The notes under the pieces were generated by a model. The model searched no databases. It had not been told where the DNA came from and saw only the letters and a program-made list of their open reading frames with translations. From Haloferax sp. Atlit-12N (GTDB lineage Archaea > Halobacteriota > Halobacteria > Halobacteriales > Haloferacaceae), in the NCBI RefSeq assembly GCF_003383095.1, contig NZ_PSYW01000001.1:744001-808000 (forward strand): a stretch of DNA of 64,000 bases, given 5' to 3'. This document shows positions 2,002-19,471 of the stretch, in pieces. The stretch's first letter is position 1, and each line of letters opens with the position of its first letter. The position numbers and the translations under genes were made by a program.

Positions 2002-3104
2002 CGGCCCGCAGACTCCCGCACGTCGTCGAGGTCGTCGCTCGCGGCGGAAAGCACCGCGTCGGGCGACAGCGAGGTGTCCCGCCACGCCGGGAGCCGCGTG
2101 TCCTCGCCGGGCTTCGAGATGGCCTCGGCGTAGGTGGCGACCTGCTCGCGCTCGTCTCCCCGGTCGTAGTCGAAGCCGTTGAACGCCGCGTCGGCCGCGT
2201 ACTGCTCGACCAGTCTGTTCCCGGCCTCGCGGTAGCGGTCGGCGAGCGTGTCGAACTCGACGCTTCCGCCGTGTTCCACGACCGCTCTGAGGAGCGTCCG
2301 CCCGACGGACTCGCTCATGTCCGAGAGGCCGGTCGGCCCGCTCACGGAGCGGTGGTCGTGTTCGTACTCGCCGAGGTCGACCTGCGCGCTCCGGTCGAAG
2401 CCGGCGTGGGCGAAGGCGTCGCCGAGGGTGCCGACTTCGAGGCCCCACTTCCGCGGCGACCGCATCTGCAACGCGAGGTCGGACGTGGCCGCGAACTCCC
2501 CGGCGAGGGCGTACCGGAACGAGTCGAGGTATCGAACGATGGGGGCGTCCGTCTCGGCTTCGAGCGCGCGGACGAGCGGGGCGTAAAACAGCCTGAACAG
2601 CCGGCCGTAGAGCCGCCCCTCCTCGACGCGGGCGTAGTAGCCCTTCGAGAAGTCGTGGCCGTGCGCGAGCGGGAACAGGAGCCGCGGGACGTAGCGCTCG
2701 TCGTAGGTCTTCGTGTCCGCGTCGTGGACGACGACGTACTCCTCGCGGGCGGCGCAGCCGAGCGCGAGCCACACGTCGCGGCCCTTGCCGCGCTCGCCGT
2801 CAAGGTCGTGGGAGTCCAGCAGGTCGGCGACGCGGGGACCGTCGCACCACAGCACGTCGAGCGGCAGGTCGTACTCGTCGAGCCAGTCGGCGAACGGGGC
2901 GACCCGGTCGGCGGGCGCGCGGAGGGGGACGACGACCCGCGCGGGCGAGAGCGACTCCAGCGTCGAGAGCACCCGCTCGGCGGCGAGGCCGGCGTACTCC
3001 CGCTCCGTCATCGGCACGACCACGGCGGCGCGGTCGGTCGGGGCGTCGGGGACCGGCCCGGAGAGGTCGTGGAGCGTCGTGACCCGCTCTTGTACGTACT
3101 CCAT
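1998..3104 (-). CDS. GT-A glycosyltransferase, glucosyl/mannosyl-3-phosphoglycerate synthase-like
   Basis: The 368-residue protein has a family-2-like nucleotide-sugar fold. The acidic metal site is VVVHDADTKTYD, preceded by GKGRDVWLALGCA, the arrangement found in glucosyl-3-phosphoglycerate synthases (GpgS) and mannosyl-3-phosphoglycerate synthases. Those enzymes move a sugar from NDP-sugar to 3-phosphoglycerate, making compatible solutes or precursors of methylglucose lipopolysaccharides. No matching phosphatase is adjacent, so the acceptor is unproven. The ATG at 3104 gives the family-like start MEYVQERVTTLHDL; longer frames upstream are intergenic. It overlaps the next gene by four bases. 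The protein is cytosolic, without a membrane segment. Confidence 0.75.
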   Translation of the reverse strand: MEYVQERVTTLHDLSGPVPDAPTDRAAVVVPMTEREYAGLAAERVLSTLESLSPARVVVPLRAPADRVAPFADWLDEYDLPLDVLWCDGPRVADLLDSHDLDGERGKGRDVWLALGCAAREEYVVVHDADTKTYDERYVPRLLFPLAHGHDFSKGYYARVEEGRLYGRLFRLFYAPLVRALEAETDAPIVRYLDSFRYALAGEFAATSDLALQMRSPRKWGLEVGTLGDAFAHAGFDRSAQVDLGEYEHDHRSVSGPTGLSDMSESVGRTLLRAVVEHGGSVEFDTLADRYREAGNRLVEQYAADAAFNGFDYDRGDEREQVATYAEAISKPGEDTRLPAWRDTSLSPDAVLSAASDDLDDVRESAGR

Positions 3105-3187
3105 CGTGTCGGTCGTAGAACCGGGCGAGCAAAAGTGCGGCGAGAGCCGAGTTGTCTGCCGGGTTCGTTCGACCGCCGCCAGTCCGC

Positions 3188-4384
3188 TCAGTTCGGGATG
3201 CGCCCGGCGCGCTGGAAGGCGATGAGGCCCGTGACGACGACCGCCAGCCCGATGGAGAACCAGAAGAACACCTCGTCGAACGCGTAGCCGAAGTCGGTCA
3301 GGGTGCCGACCACGCCCGACCCGCTGGCCTGGAATATCATCATGCCGAACGAGTACACCGAGTAGGCGCTCCCGCGGCTCTCGTCGGGGAGCGTGTCGAG
3401 CAGGTAGGCGTCGAGCGCCGGAAAGAGGCTGTGGATGACGTAGCCGACGACCGCGGTGACGACGAGGAGGCCGACGAGGCTCGTCGTCACGGTCAAGACG
3501 AACACCGAGACGACGAAGGAGACGAGCACGCCGAGGATGTACGGGATGCGCGGCAGTTTGTCGGCGAGCCGCCCCGAGAGGAAGAACGCCGGCACGCCCG
3601 CGCCGAAGATGACCGTCAGCATGTTTCGCGCCGTCGTCGCTGGCAGCCCCTTCGACACCATGTACAGTTCGTAGAAGTTGAACAGGCCCTGCCAGACGAA
3701 GCCGGTGAAGCCGAGGATGACGATGCCGGTGAGGATGACGCGCCACTCGGACCGGGCTGCGCCGAGGAGGTCGCGGTCGGCCGCGCCCGCGTCGGGAAGG
3801 TCCGTCGAGCGGGCCGTGAAGAACAGCGCGAGCGTCACGGCGGCGGCCGCGAGGCCGACGCAGACGAAGACGAGTTGCCACGCCGCGGAAACGAACGGGA
3901 GCCGGGGGACGAGGTCGGCCCCGACTGCGAGGACGAGCGTGACGAAGGGGGCGACGCCGACGGCCGCGAGTTGGCTGGCGGTGCCGTGGATTCCCATCGC
4001 GCGGCCGACGCGGTCGGGGAACAGCTCGCTCACGAGCGGGTTGGCGGCGACGAAGTACGCGCCCGAGGCGAGGCCCATCGAGACCGCGCCAATCATCAGC
4101 GTCTCGACGGTGGTCGCGCTGGCGGTCACGCCCGAGGCGATGACGAGGATGACGCCGGTCCCGAGCACCACCCGGTGTCTCGGAACGCGGGTGAGCAGCC
4201 AGCCGGTCGGGACGCGGAGAGCGGCGCTCCCGAGCCAGACGAGGGTGGCGACGATGCCGACGGTGGCGCGGTCGACCTCGAAGAACGTGATGAACTCCCC
4301 GAGAAGCGGTGCGAAGACGACTCGCGCGAGGTTGACGAGCAGCACCATCCCGCAGAGGGTTCCGAAGAGGCGGCCACGTGACAC
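3188..4384 (-). CDS. Major facilitator superfamily transporter
   Basis: The 398-residue protein shows twelve hydrophobic segments in two halves of six, with the MFS signature GRAMGIHGTASQLAA around the fourth and fifth helices and a cytoplasmic central loop (about residues 190-210, LPDAGAADRDLLGAARSEW). This is the usual length of MFS secondary carriers, which exchange small solutes across the cytoplasmic membrane using ion gradients. The substrate cannot be read from the sequence. It is transcribed away from the zinc-protein gene at 4507, and the gap between them holds both promoters. Efflux of a drug-like compound or uptake of a sugar or organic acid are equally possible. Confidence 0.85.
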   Translation of the reverse strand: MSRGRLFGTLCGMVLLVNLARVVFAPLLGEFITFFEVDRATVGIVATLVWLGSAALRVPTGWLLTRVPRHRVVLGTGVILVIASGVTASATTVETLMIGAVSMGLASGAYFVAANPLVSELFPDRVGRAMGIHGTASQLAAVGVAPFVTLVLAVGADLVPRLPFVSAAWQLVFVCVGLAAAAVTLALFFTARSTDLPDAGAADRDLLGAARSEWRVILTGIVILGFTGFVWQGLFNFYELYMVSKGLPATTARNMLTVIFGAGVPAFFLSGRLADKLPRIPYILGVLVSFVVSVFVLTVTTSLVGLLVVTAVVGYVIHSLFPALDAYLLDTLPDESRGSAYSVYSFGMMIFQASGSGVVGTLTDFGYAFDEVFFWFSIGLAVVVTGLIAFQRAGRIPN

Positions 4385-7163: not shown

Positions 7164-8060
7164 TCAGTCGTCGCCGGCCCGGTAGGCGTCGATTGCCGCC
7201 CGGTAGCCCTCGCGATACGTCGGATACGCGAACGAATAGCCGAGTTCGCGGAGGGAGTCGTTCGAACAGCGCTTGCTCGTCAGGATGCGACGGCGGGCAG
7301 CCTCCGAGAGGTCGCCCGCGTCGAGGCGTTCTTCCTTCGTCCGCTTTTTGGGGCGCGGGACGCCGCACTCGTCAGCCAGCCAATCCGCGAACTCGTGTTT
7401 CGAGACTGGTTCGTCGTCGACGACGAGGACGGTGTCGTCGCGGGCGCGGTCGGTTTCGAGGAGGTACGCGACGACGCCCGCGGCGTCGTCTCGGTGGACC
7501 ATGTTGAGGTAGCCCGCCGTGACCGGGCCGGTCAGGTAGCGGTCGAGTCGGTAGCGGTCGGGACCGTAGAGCCCGGCGAACCGGGTGACGGTCCCCTCGA
7601 TTCCCCGCTCGGCGGCGTGCTCGCGGGCGACGCGCTCGGCCTCTGCGAGGACACGCGTCTTGTCGGTCGTCGGGTCGAGCGGCGTCGACTCGTCGACGAA
7701 GTCGCCGCCGTGATCGCCGTAGACGCCCGTGCTCGACGTGTAGACGAGGCGCTCGGGCGGCGAGTCGCGGGCGGCGAAGTGGTCGATTGCCGTTCGGAGG
7801 CCCTCGACGAAGACGGTCCGGGCGGCGTCGGCCCCGCGGCCGCCGGAACTCGCGGCGAAGACGATGTGGTCCACGTCGGGGACCGACGCCAGCGAGTCGG
7901 CGTCCGTCACGTCGGCGCGGACCGCCTCCGCACCGGTCGCTTCGATGGCGGCGAGGCCGTCGTCGGAGCGGCGGACACCCCACACGTCGTGGTCGTCGGC
8001 AACGAGCGTGCGAGCGAGTTCGAGGCCGACGTAGCCACAGCCGAGGATGGCGACTCTCAT
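7164..8060 (-). CDS. NAD(P)-dependent epimerase/dehydratase-like protein
   Basis: The 298-residue protein begins with a Rossmann glycine motif, GCGYVGLELA (residues 7-16), and has the extended-SDR strand ERLVYTSSTGVYGDHGG (about 103-119). The usual YxxxK lysine four residues after the tyrosine is not evident, so it belongs to the atypical SDRs related to YeeZ, some of which are not classical oxidoreductases. The C-terminal part (RPKKRTKEERLDAGDLSEAARRR) is polar and positively charged. Its start overlaps the stop of the upstream hypothetical gene (ATGA), so the pair is coupled. A nucleotide-sugar or cofactor-repair role is possible but unproven. Confidence 0.8.
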   Translation of the reverse strand: MRVAILGCGYVGLELARTLVADDHDVWGVRRSDDGLAAIEATGAEAVRADVTDADSLASVPDVDHIVFAASSGGRGADAARTVFVEGLRTAIDHFAARDSPPERLVYTSSTGVYGDHGGDFVDESTPLDPTTDKTRVLAEAERVAREHAAERGIEGTVTRFAGLYGPDRYRLDRYLTGPVTAGYLNMVHRDDAAGVVAYLLETDRARDDTVLVVDDEPVSKHEFADWLADECGVPRPKKRTKEERLDAGDLSEAARRRILTSKRCSNDSLRELGYSFAYPTYREGYRAAIDAYRAGDD

Positions 8061-8476
8061 CGCTCGTTTCGGACGGCGATGACGTGGTGGATGGCCGCCA
8101 GTTCGTTCAGCGTGGCGGCGGTGCGACCCTCGATGGCCTGCTGAATCTCCTGTCCGGAGAGGTCGAGGTCGACCTCGGACGCGAGCGTATCCACGTCGAG
8201 GATGCCGCTCGTCATGCCCATGAGGAGGTGGTCGCGGAACTCCCAGACGATGGCGTCGGCGTCGGGGTTGCCGTCGGCAAGTTCGAGAACCGCGGCGGCC
8301 TGTTCGAGCGTGAGGTCCAACACGCCGTTCGAGAGCGCGGCTTCCGAGACGCCGGCGGCCTCGGCGGCCGTCTCCGACCCGGCGGCGTCGACTGCGCGGC
8401 GAATCTCGTCCTCGTAGGCGGTGCGCAACTCGTCGGCCGAGAGGGTTCCGGGCTTCGCGGCGGCGTCGTACAACAT
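8057..8476 (-). CDS. Conserved haloarchaeal protein with HTH-like middle
   Basis: The ATG at 8476 gives 139 residues starting MLYDAAAKPGTLSADELRTAYEDE. An AAAACGG element near 8503, about 27 bases upstream, supports this start over the longer frame to 8563, which would cross the promoter. The segment SETAAEAAGVSEAALSNGVLDLTLEQAAAVLEL (about 35-67) looks like two short helical repeats with a helix-turn-helix feel, but I cannot call it a DNA-binding domain. The tail ends in IHHVIAVRNER. It is coupled to the epimerase-like gene downstream by a four-base overlap. Function unknown. Confidence 0.7.
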   Translation of the reverse strand: MLYDAAAKPGTLSADELRTAYEDEIRRAVDAAGSETAAEAAGVSEAALSNGVLDLTLEQAAAVLELADGNPDADAIVWEFRDHLLMGMTSGILDVDTLASEVDLDLSGQEIQQAIEGRTAATLNELAAIHHVIAVRNER

Positions 8477-8534
8477 ATACCGCGGATTGGGCGTTCCGGC
8501 GGCAAAACGGTTGCCACTCGGGTCGTATTGGCGG

Positions 8535-11500
8535 CTACCCGTCCGCATGGCAGTTCGCCGCAACGGTGCAACCCGGACCGCCCGCCCAGCCCTCGGAACG
8601 CTCGTCTGCGTCGCCGTCGATGTCGCCGACGCCGACGCCCGACGGGGGTACCGCGACGACGATTGCCGTCTCCACGTCGAACGCGACGCGGTCGCCGCGG
8701 CCGACCGTCTCCGCGACGCCGTCGTCGTCCCAGTCGAGGGCGACGGGCGACCCGTCGCGGGCGTACGTCAGTGACTCCGTGTCGCCGCGGGCGTGGACCC
8801 GGAACTGCGCGAACTCGCCGGCGACCGACACGTCCCAGACGTTGACCGTCGCGTACCAGTACCCCGGGACGGGCGCGACCGGCATCCCGGCGGGGACACG
8901 CTTGAACGACGTATCGAAGCGGGAGTCGAGCGTGTCGTTCACGCGGTCGGTGACCGCCTTCTCGGTGGCGCTCATCGCCGCGTCGGTCGCCATGTCGGTG
9001 ACGGCCTGCTGACGGGCGGTCCGCGTCGTCTCGACGGTCCGGTTCGTGAGTCGTTGTGAGACCGTCGTCGAGCGGTCCTGGCGGACGGTTCGGAACGCCT
9101 CGTCGAGGCGGCGTTCGAGGAGGTCGGCCTCGACGGTTCCCGTTCCGGCGGCCTCAACGGCGATTGCGCGGGCCGCAGAGCCGTTCGTGACCGCCAGCGC
9201 CCGGTGGGCTGGGTCGTCCCACTCGCCGAGCGCGCGCTCCAGAATCCGCTGGCGCTCCGTCATCGAGTGGTCGGTGTGCGCGCGCAGCTCGTCCTCAGCG
9301 GCCTCTTCGGCGGGTACGGTCGACCGGTCGACCGCGGTTTCGAGCCTGTCGCGCCGGTCGGCGAGCGTCTCGTTCGTCCCGTTCGTCGCCGCGAGCGTCG
9401 AATCGGCGGCGAGGAGCGCGCGGGCCGCGACGCGGAGCGGGACGCGGCGGTTCGCGCCGAACACCGGTTCGAGGACAGTGTCTGCGGCGTCGCCGTAGGG
9501 GAGCGTGAACAGGTTGGTGTTGCGGGCGACGAGCGGGTGGTAGGTGCCGCCGCGCGAGACGGTCGGCATCGCGGACCCCGAGAGACCGCCGAGCGAGAGG
9601 TACATGGGGTCAGCGTCGGGGACGAATCGGACACCGGTCTCGTTGCCAGTTCCGTTCTCGCCGTTCGCTCGGGTCTCACCGAGCGCCGCGCGGGCGACCG
9701 CCTCGGCACGGACCGCCTTCGAGAGCGACCCGATAGCTGCGTCCGTGCTCGCGTCGTCGGCCGCGCCGGTCGCCGCCGCGCTCCGGTTCGCCCGGCGGTC
9801 GAGCGCCGCCAGCACGCGGTCGAGATACGCGGCGCGGACCGCGACGCGTGCTCGGTCGGAGACGCCGTCGTAGGCGGCCGGTGCGCCGACGAGCTCTCGG
9901 CGGTCGGCGCGCAGGTCGGACGCGAGTTCCGCGGCGAGGTTCGCCTCGCCCGCGGCAACCCGCCGGGCAGACAGCGTCACGCTCCGGTTTTTCACGCGGT
10001 CGGCGAGCGCGACGAGGTCAGCACGAATCCAGTTGTCGAGGCCGGGAGCCGATGGTGCGGTCGTCAGTCGTGGGTCGGGCGCATCGCCGTCGGCGACGTC
10101 GCGGGCGAGGCCGTCGAACCCGCCGTGGGTCGCAACCGCGTCCTCGGCACGCTCGGCGGCCGCGGCGAAGTTCTCGCCGTCGAGCGCGCCGCCGGGTTCG
10201 ACCGCCGGGTCGATGGGTTGCGCAGGAGTGGACAGGTCGGCCGGGTCGACGACGGCCACGAGGTCGACGCGCGTCTTCGTCTCCGTTGTCTCGTCGGTGC
10301 GGAACGTCTCGTTGCCCCGCCGCCACGTTCGGGTGGTCGTCTCGCTCGTCGTCACGACGCGGGAGCCGGCGGCGACGACGATTGTGTCGGCTTCGAGCGC
10401 CGGCGTTCGCGTCGCCACCGTCTCGACCGACGACGACGCCTCGGTCGTCGTACCGACGAGTTCCCACTCACGGCCGAGGTCGACCGGCGGGTCGTCCGTG
10501 TGATCGACGACGGTCGCGTCGGCTTCGACTGCGACTGCGGCCCGGTGCGCGTCCGCGACCACGTCGTCGTAAGCGGGCGCGTCGCCGTGGCCGTCGAGAA
10601 GGCCGACCAGCGCGTGGTCGGCCGCGGAGCCGACGGAGGCGTTGATGGTCCGGTTCGTCGGAACCTCGCTCGCGGCTGACTCGGCAGACGGATTGGGTGC
10701 GGGGAGCGCGCTCGCCAGTTCGGGCGCGGCGGGGACGCCGGTCTGCGAGAGCAGGCTCTGGGCACCGGCGTGGACGGCGGCGCGACCGGTCGCCCCGCGG
10801 GCGTCGGCGTCAGTCGCCCCGAACGCCTGCTGTTCGGCGAGCAGGACGCCGGCGTTCGTCGCCAGCGCGGCGTGGTCGTTCGAGACGACGTTGTCCACGG
10901 GCGCGCCGGCGTACTGGCTCCAGCCGCGAGTCCACGCCGACGCCCACAGCGCGGTCGTCACCGTCGCGTCGAGCGTCCCGCCGTCCAGCGCGTTCGCGTC
11001 GAGACGGTGCTCGAAGGCCTCGGTTCGGTCGTGGAGCGCGAGGACGGGCGTTCGGACGCCGACCGTCGCGGTGACGGACTCGGTGGCGACGGTGCGACCG
11101 CCGCGAACGACTTCGACCGAGACGTTCTCGACGGTCGCGACGAGGACAGTTCCGTTCTCGCGGCCCGAGATAGAGACGCGGTCCATCGCGTCGCGGAGGG
11201 TCGACTCGTTGGTCGGCCGCGGCAGAGTCGCGGTCGCGTTCACATCGCCGCGGGCGACGGAGACGGCCCGAAGCCGCTCCGTCGCGGCGAGAGCGATGCG
11301 GAGCCTGAGATAGTCGCGGAAGGGGCGCTCCTCGGAGAGCAGTCGTCCGACGGTCGTGTTCGCGGGCGAGGTGACGGGGTTCGCCGCGGCCTCGCGCGCC
11401 GCGTCGCCGACGGCCGCGCGAACGGCGGCGTCGGCCTGTGCGGTCGCGCGGTCCATCGCGTCGTCGACCCGGCGGTCGGCCACGGGGTCGTGACCCGCGA

Positions 11501-11591
11501 GCGCGCCGGAGAACGTCGCGCTCCCGACGAGGAGCAACACACCGAGCAGGGCGAATGGAACCCGACCGCGGTTGTCGTCTGCGAGCCTCAC
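8535..11591 (-). CDS. Giant secreted/membrane-anchored protein of the pilus-like cluster
   Basis: About 1,018 residues with one N-terminal hydrophobic segment (residues 10-32, VPFALLGVLLLVGSATFSGALAG) after a short basic head (MRLADDNRGR). That is typical of a pilin-like or uncleaved signal-anchor protein. The rest is a large acidic, alanine- and threonine-rich ectodomain with many NxT/NxS sequons (NTTVG, NESTL, NRTIN), so N-glycosylation outside the cell is likely. The GTG at 11591 is chosen because it overlaps the preceding stop (GTGA); the upstream GTG at 11600 is less likely. It is the last gene of the cluster and probably its largest surface component. I recognise no enzymatic motif. Confidence 0.75.
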   Translation of the reverse strand: MRLADDNRGRVPFALLGVLLLVGSATFSGALAGHDPVADRRVDDAMDRATAQADAAVRAAVGDAAREAAANPVTSPANTTVGRLLSEERPFRDYLRLRIALAATERLRAVSVARGDVNATATLPRPTNESTLRDAMDRVSISGRENGTVLVATVENVSVEVVRGGRTVATESVTATVGVRTPVLALHDRTEAFEHRLDANALDGGTLDATVTTALWASAWTRGWSQYAGAPVDNVVSNDHAALATNAGVLLAEQQAFGATDADARGATGRAAVHAGAQSLLSQTGVPAAPELASALPAPNPSAESAASEVPTNRTINASVGSAADHALVGLLDGHGDAPAYDDVVADAHRAAVAVEADATVVDHTDDPPVDLGREWELVGTTTEASSSVETVATRTPALEADTIVVAAGSRVVTTSETTTRTWRRGNETFRTDETTETKTRVDLVAVVDPADLSTPAQPIDPAVEPGGALDGENFAAAAERAEDAVATHGGFDGLARDVADGDAPDPRLTTAPSAPGLDNWIRADLVALADRVKNRSVTLSARRVAAGEANLAAELASDLRADRRELVGAPAAYDGVSDRARVAVRAAYLDRVLAALDRRANRSAAATGAADDASTDAAIGSLSKAVRAEAVARAALGETRANGENGTGNETGVRFVPDADPMYLSLGGLSGSAMPTVSRGGTYHPLVARNTNLFTLPYGDAADTVLEPVFGANRRVPLRVAARALLAADSTLAATNGTNETLADRRDRLETAVDRSTVPAEEAAEDELRAHTDHSMTERQRILERALGEWDDPAHRALAVTNGSAARAIAVEAAGTGTVEADLLERRLDEAFRTVRQDRSTTVSQRLTNRTVETTRTARQQAVTDMATDAAMSATEKAVTDRVNDTLDSRFDTSFKRVPAGMPVAPVPGYWYATVNVWDVSVAGEFAQFRVHARGDTESLTYARDGSPVALDWDDDGVAETVGRGDRVAFDVETAIVVAVPPSGVGVGDIDGDADERSEGWAGGPGCTVAANCHADG

Positions 11592-12469
11592 GCCGACCAC
11601 GTCCTGACGACGATAGTGACGCGTCCGACCGAGACGGCCTCGGCGGCGGCTCGCGGGGTGTCGTACCGGGCGCGCATCGCGTCGGCGAAGCGCGGGGCCA
11701 GCGCCGCCGCGAGGTCGGCGTTGGCGGCGCGGGTCTCCTCGCGGGCGACTTCGGGCGCGACGGAGGCGTTCACCAGCACCCCAGCCCGCTCGTACCGGTG
11801 GGTCATCAGCGTCGAAACCGGTTCGTCGCCGCGGAGCGCGAGGCGAGCGAGCGCGGGCGGGAACAGCCCCGAGACGGTTCGATTTGCGACGACACGAGCG
11901 ACGGCGTCGAAGCCGTCGTCGCTGGCGGCGACAGCGTCGTTTCGCGCCGCGGGGAACCCGCTGGGCACGTCAAGCGTCGCGGAGTGGACCGTCGCCGACG
12001 ACGGCGACTCGGGCCCGAGGTCATCAGTCGCGCGGACCGGCGCACCGAGGAACGGCGTCCACACGGCGGCGACGGAGATGCCGCGAGTCGGGAGTTCGGA
12101 GGCGACGCGAGCGGCGGTCCGCGTCCGGAAATCGTCGCGGGCGCGGGTCAGGCGAACGCCGTCGATGGTGGTCGCACCGAGCGTCGCGCGGGCGAGGAGA
12201 CCCGCGAGACTACCGTGAGCGGTCCGGTCGAGTTCGCGAGGGTCGACGCCGTCGGCATCGAGGAGCGACGGGTCCGCGGCCTCGACACCGGGGGCGAGCG
12301 AGTAGTTGACCGTGGCGGTGCTCGTCGCCAGCGACGAGGCGACCCCGTCGGCGTCGATAGCGGCGTGGTCGGCGCTTGTACTCGCGCCGGCGTCCGCGGT
12401 GACGACGAGGCCGATGCTCGCACTCACGAGCAGCAGGCACACCGTCACGTCGAAGACGAGGTCGGTCAT
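11588..12469 (-). CDS. Pilin-like membrane-anchored cluster protein
   Basis: The 293-residue protein has an N-terminal transmembrane segment directly after three residues (MTDLVFDVTVCLLLVSASIGLVV), then an extracellular alanine-rich domain. Two SVAPEVA/LAPGVEA-like stretches and NRT/NAS sequons suggest exposure outside the cell. The short head before the helix resembles pseudopilins, though no glycine or arginine cleavage site for PibD is clear. It overlaps both neighbours by four bases (ATGA and GTGA), so the genes are tightly coupled. It probably forms part of the external or periplasm-like stalk of the machine. The family is known to me only as a haloarchaeal uncharacterised one. Confidence 0.75.
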   Translation of the reverse strand: MTDLVFDVTVCLLLVSASIGLVVTADAGASTSADHAAIDADGVASSLATSTATVNYSLAPGVEAADPSLLDADGVDPRELDRTAHGSLAGLLARATLGATTIDGVRLTRARDDFRTRTAARVASELPTRGISVAAVWTPFLGAPVRATDDLGPESPSSATVHSATLDVPSGFPAARNDAVAASDDGFDAVARVVANRTVSGLFPPALARLALRGDEPVSTLMTHRYERAGVLVNASVAPEVAREETRAANADLAAALAPRFADAMRARYDTPRAAAEAVSVGRVTIVVRTWSA

Positions 12470-12858
12470 CGCCACACCTCGACCCGGAGCGTTCCGAATC
12501 CGACGCGACCGGGTTCGACGCGGACGCTGACGCGGGTCGAATCGGCGTCTGCCTCGGTTGGCGCGTCAGGGCCGACGGCTCGGCGGTCGCCGTCGACCGC
12601 GACGACAACGCGACACGAGAACCCGTCGGGACAGGCGTCGAGCGCGTCCGAGAGCCGCGAGACGGCGACGACGCCCGAGTCGTCGGTGAGGGTGGATTCG
12701 ACGTTCGACAGCGTCGCCGGTGCGAGGTCTCGGTCGGTGGTCGGCAGCGAGTCGTCGAGGACTGTCGCGTAGCCCGAAATCGCCGCGCAGACGACGAATA
12801 ACGCGGTGAGTGCGGCGACGGGCGAGGTCTGTGCCCTACGCCGAGACGATGGTGACAT
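12466..12858 (-). CDS. Small pilin-like protein of the cluster
   Basis: The 130-residue protein has a basic head (MSPSSRRRAQ) followed by TSPVAALTALFVVCAAISGYA (residues 11-31). This resembles minor pilins processed after a charged leader. The ectodomain contains a cysteine pair (ACPDGFSC, about 74-81) that could form a disulfide, and ends in a beta-rich RVEPGRVGFGTLRVEVW. The gene overlaps its upstream neighbour by 23 bases and its downstream one by four. A minor-pilin or assembly-priming role is the natural guess, but cleavage by prepilin peptidase is not certain because the canonical G/A-R-G-V/S-S-P-V core is absent. Confidence 0.7.
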   Translation of the reverse strand: MSPSSRRRAQTSPVAALTALFVVCAAISGYATVLDDSLPTTDRDLAPATLSNVESTLTDDSGVVAVSRLSDALDACPDGFSCRVVVAVDGDRRAVGPDAPTEADADSTRVSVRVEPGRVGFGTLRVEVWR

Positions 12859-13306
12859 CCGTTCCCTCCCAACTGATGTGGCGGACGACGAGCGGTTCGC
12901 TGGCGGGCCGCCACGAGGCGTTCCGGTCGCGTGCGGTCTCAGCCGCGGCGGCGAACGCGGCGGGCGAGTCGAAGACGGCGCTCGGGGACGCGCCGGCGGC
13001 GACCGACCCGAGTCGGGAGTCGGGCGTCGCCGGCGTCACCGGGCCGAAGGCGAACGTGGCGTGTGCCGCGCCGCCGTCGTTTCGGAGGCCGAGTCGGTGC
13101 GGGCCGAGGCGGATGGCGTCGGCATCGAGGTCGTGTTCGGCGGTCGCGTCGTACTCGGCGACGGCCACGGTATCGACGGCGTCGGTGACTCCCGAGGCGT
13201 CGGGCGCGGGCGTCGTCGGGAGGCCGGCGACCGTCCCGACGAGGACGGTCGCGGCCAGCGAGAGCGCGGCCCACGTGTAGAGCGTATCGAGCGGTGCGTC
13301 GAGCAT
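12836..13306 (-). CDS. Membrane-anchored protein of the cluster, first gene of a sub-operon
   Basis: The 156-residue product has a hydrophobic N-terminal segment (about 10-29, YTWAALSLAATVLVGTVAGL) and an extracellular domain rich in aspartate and alanine that ends in strands LVVRHISWEGTDVTIVSA. A TATAAA box on the opposite-strand reading (13332-13337) lies about 28 bases before its ATG. Transcription can therefore restart here inside the cluster. Length and position suggest a structural partner of the three downstream anchored proteins. I do not recognise a characterised family. Confidence 0.75.
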   Translation of the reverse strand: MLDAPLDTLYTWAALSLAATVLVGTVAGLPTTPAPDASGVTDAVDTVAVAEYDATAEHDLDADAIRLGPHRLGLRNDGGAAHATFAFGPVTPATPDSRLGSVAAGASPSAVFDSPAAFAAAAETARDRNASWRPASEPLVVRHISWEGTDVTIVSA

Positions 13307-13331
13307 AGACCGGGGTGGTCCCGTTCGAGTA

Positions 13332-13337
13332 TATAAA
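13332..13337 (-). promoter_or_regulatory. TATA box of the second promoter in the pilus-like cluster
   Basis: Read on the minus strand the sequence is GGTTTATATACTCG, with the box centred about 28 bases before the ATG at 13306. It separates the secretion-core genes (ATPase and membrane protein) from the anchored surface proteins, which could therefore be made in different amounts. Confidence 0.65.
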
Positions 13338-13396
13338 CCTCAGCACGGAACGGCGACGGGAGCGGAGCCGGTGGCGAACGTCGCGAGCGCCGCGAC

Positions 13397-15166
13397 TTAG
13401 ACGAGCGTTCCCGCGGCGGCGAACGCGAGCGCGAACGTCGTCGTCGCCGACACGAGCGCCCGGCCGACGCGAGAGGCCACGAGATGGCGGTCGAGGCCGT
13501 GTTCGACGCCGACCGAGAGCGTCGTCAGGATGACCGCCGAGAGGAGGACGTACGCGCCGACGGCCAGCCCGAGGTCGGCGGTCGAAAGCGGCGCGGCGAC
13601 AGCCGTCTGGTCGAGCGTCTTCGCGGGGGCCATCCCGTCGGCGAGCGCGACGGTTGCGCCGGCGACGAGCGGCCCGAAGACGGCGGCCGTGTTCGACAGC
13701 GTCTCCGTGACGGACGCGAGTTCGCGGCGGGCCTCGGCGTCGAGTCGGGAGAGCGCCGAGAGCTGGTCGGCCATCGAGACGATTGCGCGGCCGGCGGGTC
13801 GACCCTCGCTGGCGGCGAGTCCGAGAAGCGTCGCCACGCCCGCGACACGGGGGCTCGGCGTCGATTCGAGGACGCCGTACTCACCGCGGAACGACTCGAC
13901 GACACCCACGCGGAGGCGACGCTGGACGCCGACGGCCTCTTCGAGCAGGTCGCCGGTTTCGCCCGGGACCGAGGTCGCCGCGCGGGCGAGCGCAGATTCG
14001 ACGGCCTCGCCCTCGCCGACGGCGCGGCCGACGAGATAGAGCGCGTCTGAGAGGCCGTCTTCGACCGCGCGGACGCGGGCTCTGAGCGCCACGACCGGGC
14101 GGGCTGCGACGAACAGCGCGGTCCCGGTTCCGAGGCCGACGGCGGCGAGCGGCGCGAGCCACGGCGCGACGAGCGCGTCGGCGGCGACGAAGCCGGCGAT
14201 TCCAGCGACTGCGCCACCGACGATGCCGACGTGGCGGTGGTCGTCGACCGCGGGGTGAGACGCGTCGACCGAGAGCGGCGCGAACGCGACCGGCCGGCGG
14301 ACGAGCACCCACCCGACCGCGGCGAGGAGACAGGCGGGAAGCGCCACGTCGTAGACGAAGGCGACGTCTGCGGCGGTGACGCCGACGCCGGCGACGCGGG
14401 CGGCCGGGAGCGCGCCGACCAGCGCGAGCGGGAGCAGGACGCCAAAGGCGTAGACCGCCGTCACCGGCCCGCGGACAGAGCCGACGAAGTCGGCGAGGCG
14501 GTCACGGGTCCCCTCGCGGACGACCTCGTGGGCCCGGTCGAGCGCCCGGTCGCGCTCGCCGGCGGGAACGTCCGCGGCAGTCTGTAGGAGCGCAGTCGAG
14601 CGGTCGAGCGCCGGGAACCACGCGCGCCACGCGTCGGCGAACTCGGAGAGCCCCGCGGTCGGCGTCCCGCGGGCGCGGTCGACGTGTGCGGCGAGCGAGG
14701 CCGAAAGCGGGTCGTCGTCGCCGTGTGCGGCGAACGCGCTGGCCCGCTCGACCGAGGGTTCGACGCGCATCCGGAGCGCGATGCGACCGACGAGTTCCGG
14801 CGCGTTTCCGAGCGCCCGCGTCCGGCGGAGCGTCGCCAGCCAGACCGGAAGTGTGTGAACCGCGTGGGCCGCACCGAGCGCGGCCGCGAGCGCGACGAAG
14901 ACGACCGTCACGGTCGGAAGCCGAGCGAGGAGGGCGACGAGTCCACCGAGCAGGCCGGCGGGAAGCGACGAGCCGTAGCCCGCGGCGACGACCGTCTCGG
15001 GGGCGAGGTCCGCGTCGAGAAACGCGAGCGACCGGCAGAGCTCGTCGCTTGGGTCGGCGTCGATGGAGTCGGGCGAAAGCCGCGCGAGCGTCGTCGCGGT
15101 CGAGTGAAGCAAGTGATTCGCACCGGAGTCCGCGCTCGCGCTCGTGGCGGTGTCCGGGTTCAGCAT
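13397..15166 (-). CDS. TadC/PilC-like type IV pilus or secretion platform protein (T2SSF domains)
   Basis: The 589-residue protein carries two T2SSF-type regions (about 120-235 and 385-500) separated and flanked by hydrophobic pairs: residues 73-105, 238-262, 270-290, 313-365, then C-terminal helices at about 505-530 and 540-589. This duplicated layout is usual for archaeal TadC/PilC proteins. In known systems the protein sits in the membrane, couples the cytosolic ATPase to pilin insertion and guides filament assembly. Its start overlaps the ATPase stop by seven bases. The N-terminal 60 residues (SASADSGANHLLHSTATT) are polar and low-complexity. Confidence 0.85.
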   Translation of the reverse strand: MLNPDTATSASADSGANHLLHSTATTLARLSPDSIDADPSDELCRSLAFLDADLAPETVVAAGYGSSLPAGLLGGLVALLARLPTVTVVFVALAAALGAAHAVHTLPVWLATLRRTRALGNAPELVGRIALRMRVEPSVERASAFAAHGDDDPLSASLAAHVDRARGTPTAGLSEFADAWRAWFPALDRSTALLQTAADVPAGERDRALDRAHEVVREGTRDRLADFVGSVRGPVTAVYAFGVLLPLALVGALPAARVAGVGVTAADVAFVYDVALPACLLAAVGWVLVRRPVAFAPLSVDASHPAVDDHRHVGIVGGAVAGIAGFVAADALVAPWLAPLAAVGLGTGTALFVAARPVVALRARVRAVEDGLSDALYLVGRAVGEGEAVESALARAATSVPGETGDLLEEAVGVQRRLRVGVVESFRGEYGVLESTPSPRVAGVATLLGLAASEGRPAGRAIVSMADQLSALSRLDAEARRELASVTETLSNTAAVFGPLVAGATVALADGMAPAKTLDQTAVAAPLSTADLGLAVGAYVLLSAVILTTLSVGVEHGLDRHLVASRVGRALVSATTTFALAFAAAGTLV

Positions 15167-17142
15167 CCCGAACCACGCTCCGCGCGGGCTGCGGCGAGGT
15201 CATCTGGCGTGGTTCGTTCCGTCGCGGCGAGCGAATCGAGATGGGTGGCGCGGGCGTCGAGCGCGTCGAGCACGTCCGCGTACGACTCGCCGGGGCGGGC
15301 CACGGATTCGACCGCGAGACTGTCGCCGCGGGCGACCGACCCCGTGGGTTCGAGGGCGCGACCGTCGTGTTCGAACAGCGTCTCGAACGCCGCGTCGTCG
15401 CCGACGGGGCGGACCTCCTCGACGCGGGCGACGCGGTGTGCGTCCGCGTGTTCGCAGGTGACGACGAGGTCGGTGGCGGCGAACGACGACGCCGGGACGC
15501 CGAGGTCGGAGACGACGCGCTCGCGCACGTCGGCGGCCCCGTCGCCGTGAATCGTTCCGAGGACCGCGTTGGCGTTCGCGCCGACGCGCATCGCCTCGTA
15601 GAGGACAGCGGCCTCCTCGCCCCGGACTTCACCGAGCGCGAGCGCGCCGTCGCCAAGCCGGAGCGCCGCGTGGAGCGCCGCCTGCGGCGTCGGTTCGGGG
15701 CCGCCGGTCGTGTCGGTTCGGAGCGTCTGCACGTCGCGGTCGGCGTCCAGCAGGCTCGACGCCGGAAGCTCCGGCGTGTCCTCGATGAGTACCGTGCGAA
15801 CGTCGCGCGGGAGTTCCCACAGGAGCGACCCGAGGAACGTCGTCTTGCCGGCCCCGCGGGAGCCGGCGACGAGGACCGACGCACCGCGCTCGACCGCGAG
15901 CGAGCAGAGCGCCGCGGCGTCGGACGACAGCGTCCCGTTGGCGACGAGCGCGGGGAGCGTCAGCGGCGTCTCGTCGTGGCGGCGGAACGCGAACCCGAGA
16001 CCGTCGCTGGCGGGCGCGGTCACGCCCGCGACCCGGACGCTCGCGCCGCCGGCCTCAACCACGGTGTCGAGTGTCGGGTCGGCGCGGGAGAACGACGCGC
16101 CGCTCACGCGACGCAGGCGGGAGGCGAGCGACTCCGCGCCGCCGGGCGCGAGGCGGACGTTTGTCGGCATCGAGACGCCGTCGGCGACGACGCGAATCGG
16201 GTTCTCGTCGGCGGGCGTCGAGACGTACACGTCCGAGACCGCGGGGTCCGAAAACAGGTCGTCGAGAACGCCGTGACCCGCGGTGTGCTTCGCCAGAATC
16301 GCCGCGAGCGTCTCGACCGGATCGTCCGGGTCGGCGGCGAGTCGGACGGCGCGGCCCGGCGCGCGCGGGCCGGCATCGACAGCGCCGCGGGCGAGTTGGT
16401 CGTGGGCGGCTTCGAGCGTGCGCGCGGCGCGCTGGTCGAGTGTCGATTCGGGCGGCGTGAGGTGGTAGACGGGGCCGCGCGGGCACTCGTACCGGCGGGC
16501 GACCGCGCCGGTGTCGAGGTCGGTCGTTCCGAGGAGTCGCCCGTCGGCCGGCGGGCGGGGGTCAACGCGGGAGCGCGCGAGCGTCGGGCCGACGACCGCC
16601 CGGAGCGCGTCGCCGTAGTCGGCGCTTCGAGACGCGCCCTCCGCGAGACCGGTTTCGACGGCCGCGCGGCGAACCGGTCCCGCGCGACCCGTCGCCTCGT
16701 GGGCGGCCCCGAGCGGGTCCTCGCGGGCGCGGTCGGCGAGGCGTTCGTCGCGGAAGCGGACGCGCTCTGCGAACCGGCCGGCAGCGACGAGCAGACCGGT
16801 CGCGGCGTCGTCGTACCGGCGTTCCAGCCCGTCGGCGCGGACGACGAGACGGTCGGCGTCGCGGGTTTCGAGCGCCTCGACAACCGTCGCGCGACAGGCG
16901 GGCGCGGTAGAGAGCGACCCGCGGTGCGGGCAGTTCCCGGCGTCGACCGCGAGCGTCACGGTCTCGTCGTCGGGGCGGTCGGTTGGCGTCGAGAACGCGG
17001 TCACACAGCTGCACTCGTCGGTCGAATCGCGGGGCGCGACCCGAACGCCGGTCGCGTCGGCGAGTCGGTCACCGAGCGCGTCCGGGAGCGCCGCAGCGAC
17101 GGTTTCGGAGAGGGAGCCGATGGAAGAGGAGTCGAGGGGCAT
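15160..17142 (-). CDS. TadA/PilB-like secretion ATPase with cysteine-rich N-terminal region
   Basis: The 660-residue ATPase has Walker A GSRGAGKTT (residues 428-436), an Asp-box region IEDTPEL (about 453-459), Walker B LALGEVRGEE (501-510) and the family histidine in GTIHGDG (529-535). It should power pilin polymerisation or retraction from the cytosolic face of TadC. The N-terminal domain contains C44, C46, C71 and C83 with a histidine at 73 (ECSC, NCPHRG, PACRA), a possible metal or Fe-S site. The ATG at 17142 lies 27 bases after a TATTTGAA box, indicating its own leaderless promoter. A fifth cysteine (YECPRG, residue 220) precedes the central linker. Confidence 0.9.
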   Translation of the reverse strand: MPLDSSSIGSLSETVAAALPDALGDRLADATGVRVAPRDSTDECSCVTAFSTPTDRPDDETVTLAVDAGNCPHRGSLSTAPACRATVVEALETRDADRLVVRADGLERRYDDAATGLLVAAGRFAERVRFRDERLADRAREDPLGAAHEATGRAGPVRRAAVETGLAEGASRSADYGDALRAVVGPTLARSRVDPRPPADGRLLGTTDLDTGAVARRYECPRGPVYHLTPPESTLDQRAARTLEAAHDQLARGAVDAGPRAPGRAVRLAADPDDPVETLAAILAKHTAGHGVLDDLFSDPAVSDVYVSTPADENPIRVVADGVSMPTNVRLAPGGAESLASRLRRVSGASFSRADPTLDTVVEAGGASVRVAGVTAPASDGLGFAFRRHDETPLTLPALVANGTLSSDAAALCSLAVERGASVLVAGSRGAGKTTFLGSLLWELPRDVRTVLIEDTPELPASSLLDADRDVQTLRTDTTGGPEPTPQAALHAALRLGDGALALGEVRGEEAAVLYEAMRVGANANAVLGTIHGDGAADVRERVVSDLGVPASSFAATDLVVTCEHADAHRVARVEEVRPVGDDAAFETLFEHDGRALEPTGSVARGDSLAVESVARPGESYADVLDALDARATHLDSLAATERTTPDDLAAARAERGSGC

Positions 17143-17165
17143 ACGAGGGCGTGGCCCCGTCCGGG

Positions 17166-17173
17166 TATTTGAA
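17166..17173 (-). promoter_or_regulatory. Putative TATA element of the TadA-like gene
   Basis: The minus strand reads TTCAAATACC about 27 bases before the ATG at 17142. It is weaker than the other two boxes of this cluster and lies within ten bases of the end of the upstream gene, so read-through is also possible. Confidence 0.45.
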
Positions 17174-17174
17174 C

Positions 17175-17636
17175 CTACGCCGCCGGCGGGTCGGCCGTCG
17201 CGGGGGCGAGGACGACGACAGAACCGCCCGCGTCGGCTTCGAGCGTCAGTCTGAGGCGGTGTTCGCCCGGCCCGAGCACGAGTCGGTCGCCGACGACGCG
17301 AATCCGCGGCCCGCCGACGCGACGGACGACGGTCGGCCCGGCGGCGATGTCCGCCGATAGCTCGACGCCGTCGCCGCCGCGAACCGCGAGTTCGGAGACG
17401 CCGGCCGCGCGCCACGACCCGGTCGGAACGTCGAGGACGACGTGCCGCCGAGCGCCCGCGACACCCGCCGGTGGCGGGTCTTCCGCGGTCGCGAGCGCCG
17501 TCGCGGCGTGTGCGATGTCGTCGGCCATCGAACCGATTGTCACGGTCGTCGCGTCCGCTCGCGCCGCGTCGGCCGCCGGGAAGACGACGCCGGCGATGGC
17601 GACCGCGAGGAGACACGTCAGAACGACGCGAATCAC
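17175..17636 (-). CDS. Secreted small protein of the pilus-like cluster
   Basis: The 153-residue protein has a signal peptide or anchor at residues 4-24 (VVLTCLLAVAIAGVVFPAADA) and a beta-rich extracellular domain with hydrophobic-polar alternation (RHVVLDVPTGSWRAAG, RLVLGPGEHRLRLTL). The start overlaps the stop of the coiled-coil gene (ATGA). Length and topology suit a minor pilin or pseudopilin-like assembly factor, but an Ala-x-Ala site (PAADAARADA) would also permit signal-peptidase release. Function unknown; linkage to the ATPase is positional. Confidence 0.7.
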   Translation of the reverse strand: MIRVVLTCLLAVAIAGVVFPAADAARADATTVTIGSMADDIAHAATALATAEDPPPAGVAGARRHVVLDVPTGSWRAAGVSELAVRGGDGVELSADIAAGPTVVRRVGGPRIRVVGDRLVLGPGEHRLRLTLEADAGGSVVVLAPATADPPAA

Positions 17637-18265
17637 AGCGCGTCGCGGAGGCGGGCGGCCAGTCCGCGGTCGGCGGAGTCGGCGCGGGAACCGGTGGCGT
17701 CGTTCCGGGAGTCGCCGGCGCGGGAGTCGCGAGCGACGTGAGAATCGCGACCGGCGTGGACGGCGGTCTCGGTCGTCTCGTCACGTCGGGGAGAATCGTC
17801 GTACGCGCCCGTGGTTTGTTGGGGGAGTGACGCCGCCTCCGAGGCAAGCGCGTCGGCCGACTGCGGCGGCGCGGGAGACGCCGTCTCGTCGACAAGTTCC
17901 GCTTCGAGCGACTCGGCCTTGGCGAGCGCGGCGTTCGCCCGGCGCTCGACGTCCTCGTTGACCGCGCGGACGCCGCCGAGGTAGCCGCGCATCGCCTGCG
18001 TCGCGGCATCCACCTCGTCGAGGCGCTCGGTGAGCGACTCGACCGCTGATTCGAGTTCGGAGACCCGACGCTCGACGGACGCGAGGTCCTCCAGCGACGA
18101 GAAGTCGGCGTCGCCGTCGGTGATGGTTCGCTCGACCGCGTCGAGCCGCGCGGCGAGGTCGGCAGTGCGGTCGGCGGTGTGGTCCGCCGCGACCGGTCCG
18201 CGGGCAGCGGGCGTTCCGGTGTCTGTGTCACCGTCAGCGTCGAAGTGGACTGGGTCGGTCGTCAT
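17633..18265 (-). CDS. Cytosolic coiled-coil protein heading the pilus-like cluster
   Basis: 210 residues without membrane segments. Residues 45-120 (LAARLDAVERTITDGDADFSSLEDLASVERRVSELE and on) show a clear heptad pattern for a coiled coil. The tail (about 125-210) is charged and disordered, ending GLAARLRDAL, which could be an amphipathic helix. The ATG at 18265 lies 28 bases after a strong TATAAA box, whereas an earlier ATG at 18286 touches the box, so the later start is preferred. Being first in the cluster, it may organise or regulate the ATPase at the membrane. No characterised homologue is known to me. Confidence 0.7.
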   Translation of the reverse strand: MTTDPVHFDADGDTDTGTPAARGPVAADHTADRTADLAARLDAVERTITDGDADFSSLEDLASVERRVSELESAVESLTERLDEVDAATQAMRGYLGGVRAVNEDVERRANAALAKAESLEAELVDETASPAPPQSADALASEAASLPQQTTGAYDDSPRRDETTETAVHAGRDSHVARDSRAGDSRNDATGSRADSADRGLAARLRDAL

Positions 18266-18290
18266 GGGGCGGTCTGGTCCCGTCATCTGA

Positions 18291-18296
18291 TATAAA
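18291..18296 (-). promoter_or_regulatory. Main promoter TATA box of the pilus-like cluster
   Basis: The minus strand reads GCTTTATATCAG, with TTTATA centred 28 bases before the ATG at 18265. The 123-base gap to the divergent cetZ start also contains CTCCG-7-CGGAG (18299-18315), a weak inverted repeat just upstream of the box. Confidence 0.7.
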
Positions 18297-18388
18297 GCTC
18301 CGGCGCGGTCGGAGCCGACCACGACCCGAGCGGTCGAACAGTTCGTCCGTGGGGAACGTTCAAGATGGGCGACGGAGTGGATTGTGGT

Positions 18389-19471
18389 ATGAAAACCGTC
18401 CTGATTGGTGTGGGGCAAGCGGGTGGGAAGCTCACCACCGCTCTCCAGTCGTTCGACCGACAGATGGGGTTCGGCGCGGTACTCGACGCCGTCGCGGTGA
18501 ACACCGCGAAAGCGGACCTCCAGCCGCTTCCGGTCGAGACCGTGCTCATCGGCCAAGACCGCGTCAACGGTCACGGCGTCGGCGGCGACAACGAGCTCGG
18601 TGCCGAGGTCATGGAGGCGGACCAGACCGAGGTCATGTCCGCGCTCGACGGCCGCGTCACGGCCGAAGCGGAATCGATTTTCGTCGTCGCTGGGCTCGGC
18701 GGCGGCTCGGGTTCCGGCGGCGCGCCCGTCCTCGCGAAGGCGCTTCGCCGCGTCTACGACGTGCCGGTGTACGTCCTCGGAATCCTGCCCGGAAAAGACG
18801 AGGGAGCGATGTATCAGGTGAACGCCGGCCGCTCGCTCAAGACCCTCGCCCGCGAGTCCGACGCCGTCCTCCTCGTCGACAACGACGCGTTTCGCTCCTC
18901 CGGCGAGTCGATGAGCGAGGGCTACGACGCCATCAACGAGGCAATCGCTCGACGCGTCGGTCTGCTGTTGGCGGCCGGTGAGGCGACCGAGGGCGTCGGC
19001 GAGAGCGTCGTCGACACCTCCGAGGTCATCAACACCCTCCGCTCCGGCGGTATCGCCGCGCTCGGCTACGCGAGCGCCGAGGCATCTCCCGACGCCGAAG
19101 ACAACATCAACACCGTCATGAGCACGACCCGCCGCGCCGTCCTGACGGGGACGAGCCTGCCCGATGCGAGCGACGCGGACTCCGCGCTCGTCATCATCGC
19201 CGGGGAACCGGACACCATCCCACGGAAGGGCGTCGAGCGAGCGCGTCGCTGGGTCGAAGAGGAGACCGGCAGTCTGCAGGTCCGCGGCGGCGACTTCCCG
19301 CTGGAGAGCGGCCGCCTCGCGTCGCTCGTCCTCCTCGGCGGCGTCGAGCGCTCCGAGCGGGTCGAGTCGTTCATGGAACGCGCCCGCGAGGCCATCGACC
19401 AGGCCAAGACCGAGAAACGAGAGGACCCCAAAGAGATGTGGCACAACGACGACCTCGACGACCTGCTGTGA
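18389..19471 (+). CDS. cetZ: CetZ tubulin/FtsZ-superfamily cytoskeletal GTPase (CetZ2-like)
   Basis: The 360-residue protein begins with the GTP-binding MKTVLIGVGQAGG and has the tubulin signature GLGGGSGSGGAP (residues 102-113). The GGGSGSG form, rather than the GGGTGTG of FtsZ1 at 42 kb, together with short overall length and the N-terminus, places it in the CetZ group. CetZ proteins of Haloferax control cell shape and motility and assemble dynamic structures at the membrane. The tail (KTEKREDPKEMWHNDDLDDLL) is charged and may be the regulatory extension. From memory it corresponds to CetZ2. It is transcribed away from the pilus-like cluster. The ATG at 18389 is used; a longer GTP-loop-preceding start adds MGDGVDCG. 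Confidence 0.9.
   Translation: MKTVLIGVGQAGGKLTTALQSFDRQMGFGAVLDAVAVNTAKADLQPLPVETVLIGQDRVNGHGVGGDNELGAEVMEADQTEVMSALDGRVTAEAESIFVVAGLGGGSGSGGAPVLAKALRRVYDVPVYVLGILPGKDEGAMYQVNAGRSLKTLARESDAVLLVDNDAFRSSGESMSEGYDAINEAIARRVGLLLAAGEATEGVGESVVDTSEVINTLRSGGIAALGYASAEASPDAEDNINTVMSTTRRAVLTGTSLPDASDADSALVIIAGEPDTIPRKGVERARRWVEEETGSLQVRGGDFPLESGRLASLVLLGGVERSERVESFMERAREAIDQAKTEKREDPKEMWHNDDLDDLL

Follow-up and report, generated by a model that had tools for sequence, protein, structure and literature searches.

CetZ2 and a divergent pilus-like operon in haloarchaea: different promoters, and a pilus-side box that is also found before DNA repair genes

In the haloarchaeon Haloferax sp. Atlit-12N, the gene cetZ2 lies back to back with an operon for a type IV pilus-like system (the pil block), and computation shows that the two sides of the intergenic region carry different promoters. 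The pil-side promoter, a TATA box joined to a conserved box, is present in two further copies within the operon and belongs to a class that is also found before DNA repair genes, whereas cetZ2 has a core-promoter element of its own. Promoter comparison supports the view that the pil operon may be wired to a repair-associated promoter class. Repair-type pil promoters hint at a pilus-like machine working alongside DNA repair. The window below means the whole stretch of DNA that was analysed, 64,000 nucleotides in length, and published work is represented by excerpts of the papers cited.

The locus and its two promoters

The features of the locus, in window coordinates, are the following.

7164..8060, minus strand: epimerase/dehydratase, flank (PF01370)
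8057..8563, minus strand: DUF5791 protein, flank (PF19104); adjoins cetZ2 directly at sites without the pil block
8535..11600, minus strand: large DUF7286 protein, 1021 aa, final gene of the pil block (PF23957, 1005 bits)
11588..12475, minus strand: DUF7284 protein (PF23955)
12466..12858, minus strand: DUF7285 protein (PF23956)
12836..13306, minus strand: DUF7283 protein (PF23954)
13307..13343, minus strand: third copy of the pil-class promoter, before DUF7283 (PWM 28.1 bits; outside the training set)
13397..15166, minus strand: PilC-like membrane protein, 589 aa, named from position and conservation only; adjoins PilB in homologous loci; no Pfam family above cut-off
15160..17142, minus strand: PilB-type secretion ATPase, 660 aa (PF00437, 61.6 bits)
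17143..17179, minus strand: second copy of the pil-class promoter, before PilB (PWM 25.8 bits; outside the training set)
17175..17636, minus strand: DUF7311 protein, 153 aa (PF23993); 4-nt overlap with DUF7310; hydrophobic stretch at the N-terminus, seen by eye
17633..18265, minus strand: DUF7310 coiled-coil protein, 210 aa (PF23991, 104.1 bits, cut-off 40); AlphaFold2 model; tail motif
18266..18302, minus strand: pil-class promoter of the DUF7310 operon; TATA 18296-18289, box GACGGGACCA 18284-18275, ATG 18265
18266..18388, no strand: divergent intergenic region between DUF7310 and cetZ2, 123 bp
18351..18364, plus strand: cetZ2 core-promoter element GGGGAACGTTCAAG, -38 to -25 from the ATG
18389..19471, plus strand: cetZ2, 360 aa; tubulin GTPase domain and CetZ_C; C-terminal tail NDDLDDLL

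The start codons (ATG 18265 on the minus strand; cetZ start 18389) confirm the spacing given in a preliminary description of the locus: the gap between the first cluster gene and cetZ is exactly 123 bp, and an additional in-frame ATG lies at 18365. The cetZ product scores 675.6 bits against PDB 4b45 and 322.7 against 4b46, which we take to be CetZ2 and CetZ1 of H. volcanii, respectively; it is therefore CetZ2, and an identity as CetZ1 is ruled out. It contains PF00091 and PF21011, both above cut-off, its paralogues in the same genome reach at most 317.6 bits, and it is 98-99% identical to the CetZ2 of named Haloferax species. FtsZ (tubulin GTPase domain and FtsZ_C) is encoded in the same window at 42328-43467 on the minus strand, ~23 kb from cetZ2. 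On the pil side, a Pfam search finds DUF7310 and DUF7283-7286 in the block, candidates for the coiled-coil protein and the predicted pilins of subclade 4F, together with the VirB11/PilB-type ATPase expected of that subclade (PF00437). By synteny, the cluster would be the subclade 4F (pilB2/C2) type IV pilus-like system.

The pil-class promoter consists of a TATA box and a CGGGACCA/CGCGGCCA box, the end of which mostly lies 8-9 nt upstream of the start codon. In the window, the leftward TATA (18296-18289) reads TTTATATC, and its spacing suits a leaderless transcript. With a matrix made from 47 homologous promoters, itself included, the pil-side promoter (18302-18266, minus strand) scores 39.5 bits and is the top site of the window. 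After the three pil promoters, the next best place in the 64 kb reaches 8.9 bits. The leftward TATA, described as strong in the preliminary description, is indeed so, and because the promoter is top-scoring in the window it is no chance AT-rich patch. The pattern of TATA, spacer, G[AG]CCA and start is found in 47 of 83 distinct homologous loci, against a mean of 0.6 and a maximum of 4 in 200 dinucleotide shuffles; many of the remaining 36 are near misses by eye.

The conserved cetZ2 element has the pattern GGAACGTTCAA and lies between about -37 and -25. It is present in 51 of 79 distinct sequences with DUF7310 and in 40 of 60 without it (shuffle means 0.6 and 0.8). The pil box (at least 10 bits) occurs on the cetZ2 strand in none of 191 loci (147 distinct), and no matching regulatory element was found on the cetZ2 and pil sides. 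A single operator for cetZ2 and DUF7310 is ruled out by the absence of the box from the cetZ2 strand and of any common element. The idea that the genes share a promoter as a means of common control thus fails, and joint control of cetZ2 and the pilus is unsupported, because the conserved elements differ. The cetZ-side promoter (18351-18364) and the repeated copies of the box are absent from the preliminary description.

Published expression data, which come from different species, show no sign of joint control. The pil-2 genes of Hbt. salinarum are co-transcribed from pilB2 onward, and pilB2 is 8.5-fold higher in adherent cells, according to excerpts of Losensky et al. (PMC4292770); a transcript beginning at pilB2 fits the box before PilB. 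Expression of cetZ2 in H. volcanii drops in sessile cells at most times (PMC7749143, in excerpt).

The pil-side box in other loci and genomes

The box matrix was trained on the 47 DUF7310 promoters adjacent to cetZ2. It was run over both strands of 129 stretches of loci (2.4 Mb, with some overlap) and finds 189 sites of at least 15 bits, 183 of them distinct, against none in reversed and none in complemented sequence. The distinct sites lie before PilB (58), DUF7283 (49), DUF7310 (42, the training class), DUF7285 (10), DUF7284 (1) and DUF7286 (1), and 22 are without an assigned gene; none of the 183 is assigned to cetZ2 or to flanking genes.

One genus, g30, has a different neighbour. There it is cetZ2 that lies apart, DUF7310 having stayed next to the pil genes; the divergent unit is that of mre11 in 14 of 16 loci. 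With the same matrix, each side of these pil/mre11 loci has a box of at least 14 bits (14/14), and the two boxes are 3 to 18 bases apart in L008, L016 and L230. Mre11 is above its family cut-off in L230 and was recognized by tblastn in the other loci. The promoter class is thus common to the divergent partners in g30 pil/mre11 loci, but not to the pil block and cetZ2.

To follow the box beyond the clusters we used a sequence model (R1) of 74 sites, which include the mre11-side site of L230 and a few other non-cluster sites and no Haloferax repair sites. At E <= 1, it finds 4 to 36 sites per genome in 20 genomes. The box is not a pilus-specific signal, because genomes without this pilus hold it too. 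At E <= 0.3, two Haloferax genomes have 20 and 28 sites (48 in total), of which 30, mostly the best-scoring, were read: five are pil-cluster promoters and 25 are non-cluster sites. Repair genes lie behind ten of the 25, namely RPA (2), a small gene then Mre11 (2), a Rad3-like helicase (2), MutL, RecJ, a NucS-like protein and a Cas4-like nuclease; the boxes before MutL and RecJ are in one genome only. The box is 293 nt from MutL, 154 nt from RPA and 74 nt from RecJ, and one gene stands between it and Mre11. Mre11, MutL, archaeal RecJ and RPA are above NCBIfam cut-offs, and the Rad3-, NucS- and Cas4-like proteins have weak family scores, passing Pfam cut-offs narrowly or in part of the protein. 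RPA with the box is also found in g30 (L265, above cut-off), and the box precedes a NucS-like gene in f5 (L249) and a Cas4-like gene in f2 (L251), both families being below cut-off. The other 15 non-cluster sites precede three pilin-like genes, one MinD-like ATPase, two DUF7857 and two DUF4013 proteins, a TctA transporter, a DUF4352 protein and a TnpB-like protein, with four having no clear gene. Sharing of the box with DNA repair genes is thus seen in the two Haloferax genomes and at the g30 pil/mre11 loci. If 4% of genes are assumed to be of repair type, the binomial probability of 10/25 is 2e-8, or 5e-6 with orthologues counted once (7/19), shared ancestry being ignored in both.

Several box sites have further features. 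The box and RPA are separated by a 48-aa frame (L248, L365), a possible leader that two Haloferax species have in similar form. In the genome from which the window comes, a box promoter precedes a TnpB-like gene with a Cas12f1-like TNB domain (L357). Directly behind the strong sites L245, L247, L252, L253, L257, L264 and L267 are very short GTG...TGA frames, several of them GTGACCTGA. We also considered whether RNA genes follow the box where no open frame does; 10 loci gave no Rfam or tRNA match, and the idea was rejected. A literature search on the letters of the box gave no relevant title among those listed, and the box is apparently unpublished; a search on HVO_0746-0751 gave no paper.

How the box is to be understood is less clear. 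It could be a general core-promoter class, for example that of an alternative TFB/TBP pair, in which repair and pilus genes are included by chance and which has no part in a damage response. The position of the box directly behind TATA, the number of sites per genome and the presence of non-repair genes among them are consistent with such a class, but the excess of repair genes at non-cluster sites argues against chance; we place this explanation somewhat short of an even prospect. In the model that we prefer, cetZ2 and the subclade-4F pilus-like operon would be two separate units, standing back to back in an old and once wider neighbourhood. The cetZ2 gene would have its own leaderless promoter, kept whether or not the pilus is present, and the pil operon would be transcribed from three copies of the box promoter. 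A dedicated regulator or basal factor acting at the box would most likely raise the pilus and DNA repair functions together, as in the Ups system, and DUF7310, the first product, would tether in the cytoplasm. We infer the regulator, induction by damage and a role in DNA exchange by analogy. The two-unit model, with the box in a chromosome-wide, repair-associated promoter set whose regulator raises pilus and repair jointly, appears to us evenly balanced between right and wrong. A broader proposal is tentative and, on the whole, doubtful: an SOS-like haloarchaeal promoter class (TATA plus CGGGACCA) would cover repair genes, the type IV pilus and stand-alone pilins, the pilus being a counterpart of Ups/Ced that joins cells or DNA for recombinational repair, with CetZ2 as an ancestral neighbour and DUF7310 as a tether for either. 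A box common to the pilus, Mre11, RPA, RecJ, MutL and nucleases opens one simple experiment in Haloferax volcanii.

Linkage, history and DUF7310

We surveyed 290 haloarchaeal genomes for CetZ2 (E <= 1e-105) and PilB (E <= 1e-50); three of 293 genomes (G155, G159, G163) are outside these counts. Both proteins are found in 193 genomes, CetZ2 only in 42, PilB only in 19 and neither in 36 (odds ratio 8.7, Fisher test, shared ancestry ignored). Given the 42 and 19 genomes, neither CetZ2 nor the pilus can be a requirement for the other. Where both are present, they are divergent within 5 kb in 121 genomes, otherwise within 5 kb in one, ~7 kb apart in two, and apart or on another contig in 69, some of the other-contig cases being contig ends (e.g. 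G105). The preliminary description had named conservation of the pair as the check on its view. The pair is linked and divergent overall, in f1 (59/61) and in the other groups (39/46), but mostly separated in f2 (15/48) and f5 (8/38). Our two-unit model gives no reason for the strong linkage in f1. In a named set, among the best 80 of 410 matches, 57 have DUF7310 divergent and PilB beside cetZ2, two have DUF7310 without PilB, one has both but with DUF7310 at a greater distance, and 20 lack both (two with a short upstream sequence); these 80 appear to overlap the 290 genomes and are no independent sample. Among the DUF7310 matches listed, DUF7310 is adjacent to cetZ2 in 90 of 143 comparable genomes, always divergently, and 92 further CetZ2 genomes have none among the matches listed. 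Gene order was viewed at 100 cetZ2 sites, 20 moved clusters and the 80 named loci, and linkage in other genomes was taken from coordinates.

The commonest full order in the 100 cetZ2 regions is AKR-DHH-epimerase-DUF5791-[DUF7286 ... PilB-DUF7311-DUF7310]-cetZ2. Eight sites have remnants of the pil block. C-terminal pieces of DUF7286 are left at the cetZ2 site of G125; C-terminal parts of DUF7286 adjoin whole or shortened DUF7310/DUF7311 in G031, G092, G077, G112 and G041, with different breakpoints; G248 has a PilB stub and Halorubrum coriense a DUF7286 remnant. In four g47 genomes, only DUF7285-7284-7286 is left. Many f5 sites are clean, the block being present or absent between DUF5791 and cetZ2. 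Despite the clean f5 sites, the remnants and their different breakpoints favour an old block that was repeatedly deleted in place. In Halorubrum coriense (L350), an mre11 match (2830-3930, 72% identity) lies ~6 kb upstream of cetZ2 and adjoins the site of the DUF7286 remnant.

A PilB tree of 62 rows, like our other trees of the quick kind, has two parts (base support 78). The first, of 45 rows, has 39 of the 42 linked PilBs and six moved clusters; the second, of 17 rows, is made up of the remaining 14 moved clusters, two linked PilBs related to them and a single linked row on a long branch. In second-type clusters, a pilin-like gene of the DERAIEGLPIRL type lies behind the box (L228, L229, L231, L233, L234, L236-L238), with a DUF7382 match in both of those tested, one below cut-off. 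A HerA-like ATPase gene is behind the box in several (four of five tested match HerA families), and in some clusters the arrangement is a back-to-back pair ~45 nt apart. Genome G273 (L230-L232) has three PilB clusters of this pil family, two of the second type. Over 35 genomes, Pearson correlations with CetZ2 distances are 0.74 for PilC, 0.63 for PilB, 0.57 for DUF5791 and 0.38 for the epimerase. By rank (rho), they are 0.52 for PilC, 0.23 for PilB, 0.24 for the epimerase and 0.26 for DUF5791. This evidence is moderate, because only PilC stands out by rank.

This history could be all that joins the two units, an old neighbourhood that is undergoing slow rearrangement and piecemeal loss with no functional link. 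The in-place deletions with remnants at eight sites, and mre11 rather than cetZ2 as the divergent partner in g30, are what such a neighbourhood would leave. The divergent order is, however, kept over several families, and DUF7310 is kept at cetZ2 where PilB is elsewhere; absence of any link is possible, though we lean against it.

The cetZ2-pilus link cannot be read from the intergenic region, and it therefore becomes a question at the level of proteins, for which DUF7310 is the candidate. The AlphaFold2 model (42 sequences; mean pLDDT 73.3, pTM 0.41) has helices at 26-50 and 55-129, a low-confidence disordered linker and a C-terminal helix at 199-209 (GLAARLRDAL, pLDDT ~86). Of 110 distinct DUF7310 proteins, 76 end in a similar way, whereas shuffled tails give 0.17 on average; no protein of eight other families of these loci has such an end. 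A PDB search gave mostly designed coiled coils and no informative relative. In three genomes of genus g36 (G097, G126, G290), DUF7310 is beside cetZ2 without pil genes, and a second-type pil cluster is found at another place, whose surroundings, as far as they were read, contain no DUF7310. This DUF7310 groups with the linked DUF7310 of g67, and its dN/dS of 0.31-0.41 is within the 0.15-0.67 of intact loci. In G011, G051 and G123, PilB is elsewhere with DUF5791 behind it, and DUF7310 remained with cetZ2; DUF7311 also remained in Halorussus marinus and Halomicrococcus. Weak further DUF7310-like matches exist, and genomes with moved clusters may have other such genes elsewhere. The adaptor role proposed for the coiled-coil protein is thus plausible, given its helices, linker and C-terminal helix and its retention beside cetZ2 without PilB in six genomes. 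From the model, DUF7310 is probably a cytoplasmic tether, whose amphipathic C-terminal helix could hold the membrane or a partner, and it may contact PilB or CetZ2.

In the view built on the preliminary description, the pilus would be positioned or scaffolded by filaments of CetZ2, DUF7310 acting as the adaptor, which would be why the genes are linked. That description held that CetZ proteins control shape and motility. CetZ2 is not the CetZ for which this was shown, although rods and motility are inhibited when a GTPase mutant of CetZ2 is overexpressed (PMC9856176, in excerpt). According to the excerpt of PMC10606840, earlier studies reported no change of shape on deletion of cetZ2, and its effects in biofilm depended on time. 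Scaffolding would explain the conserved divergent pairing, the Pearson correlations of CetZ2 with PilC and PilB above those of the flanks, and the DUF7310 that stays at cetZ2 in six genomes, with none seen in the DNA read around the moved clusters and, in three of the genomes, a dN/dS like that of intact loci; a cetZ gene is also beside another pilus type in Thermococcales (Brown and Duggin, PMC9856176). It is nevertheless unlikely: each partner persists alone, the rank correlation of CetZ2 with PilB is no better than those of the flanks, of the 14 second-type clusters read, none adjoins cetZ2 and ten come with a DUF7310 of their own, the promoters differ, and the CetZ2 tail motif is independent of the presence of DUF7310. 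This tail (window 19445-19468), a peptide of the NDELDDLF / DDRLENLF kind in nearly all loci listed, with or without pil genes, is reminiscent of the C-terminal peptide of FtsZ. A docking site that tracks DUF7310 is rejected for it, since tails of the NDELDDLF kind persist without DUF7310.

A relatively recent, mobile acquisition of the pil block beside cetZ2, raised as possible in sections 3.8-3.9 of Brown and Duggin (2023, PMC9856176), would fit the clean f5 sites but is very unlikely, as the eight non-intact sites hold parts of the block, several with ends joined, nearly all linked PilBs group together in the tree, in a part that also takes in six moved clusters, and pil-gene and CetZ2 distances correlate (Pearson).

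Comparison with known systems

The pairing of cetZ2 with pil genes is not new. Of 22 regions examined earlier, 12 have cetZ2 next to the pilB2/C2 regulon (Brown and Duggin, 2023, PMC9856176), and excerpts of Makarova et al. (2016, PMC4858521) describe an FtsZ-like neighbour for subclade 4F and a unique coiled-coil protein, arCOG07564, presumed to be a regulatory subunit. We take arCOG07564 to be DUF7310 from its position and description. The present locus is like these and the pil-2 locus (PMC4292770) in its kinds of genes and its neighbour. New here are the 290-genome count, the deletion remnants, the two cluster types, the three-copy box, the boxes of repair genes and the C-terminal helix of DUF7310.

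A haloarchaeal promoter motif common to repair genes has a precedent in the UV motif TTTCACTTTCA of radA1 and top6B in Halobacterium (PMC2556686). That motif differs from the box in sequence and lies upstream of TATA; the text of that paper has no word beginning with 'pili'.

There is also a likeness to the UV-inducible pili (Ups) and the Ced system of Sulfolobales (PMC5817253, PMC11868833, in excerpt), where a type IV pilus likewise has a promoter motif in common with a wider damage-related gene set; the HerA-like ATPase behind the box in several second-type haloarchaeal clusters is a further likeness. By this analogy, the haloarchaeal pilus may have a role in DNA exchange or the damage response. 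The haloarchaeal system differs from Ups (PMC5817253) in that its pilus belongs to another clade and its box, known from sequence alone, lies behind TATA, whereas the Ups motif is an upstream hexanucleotide.
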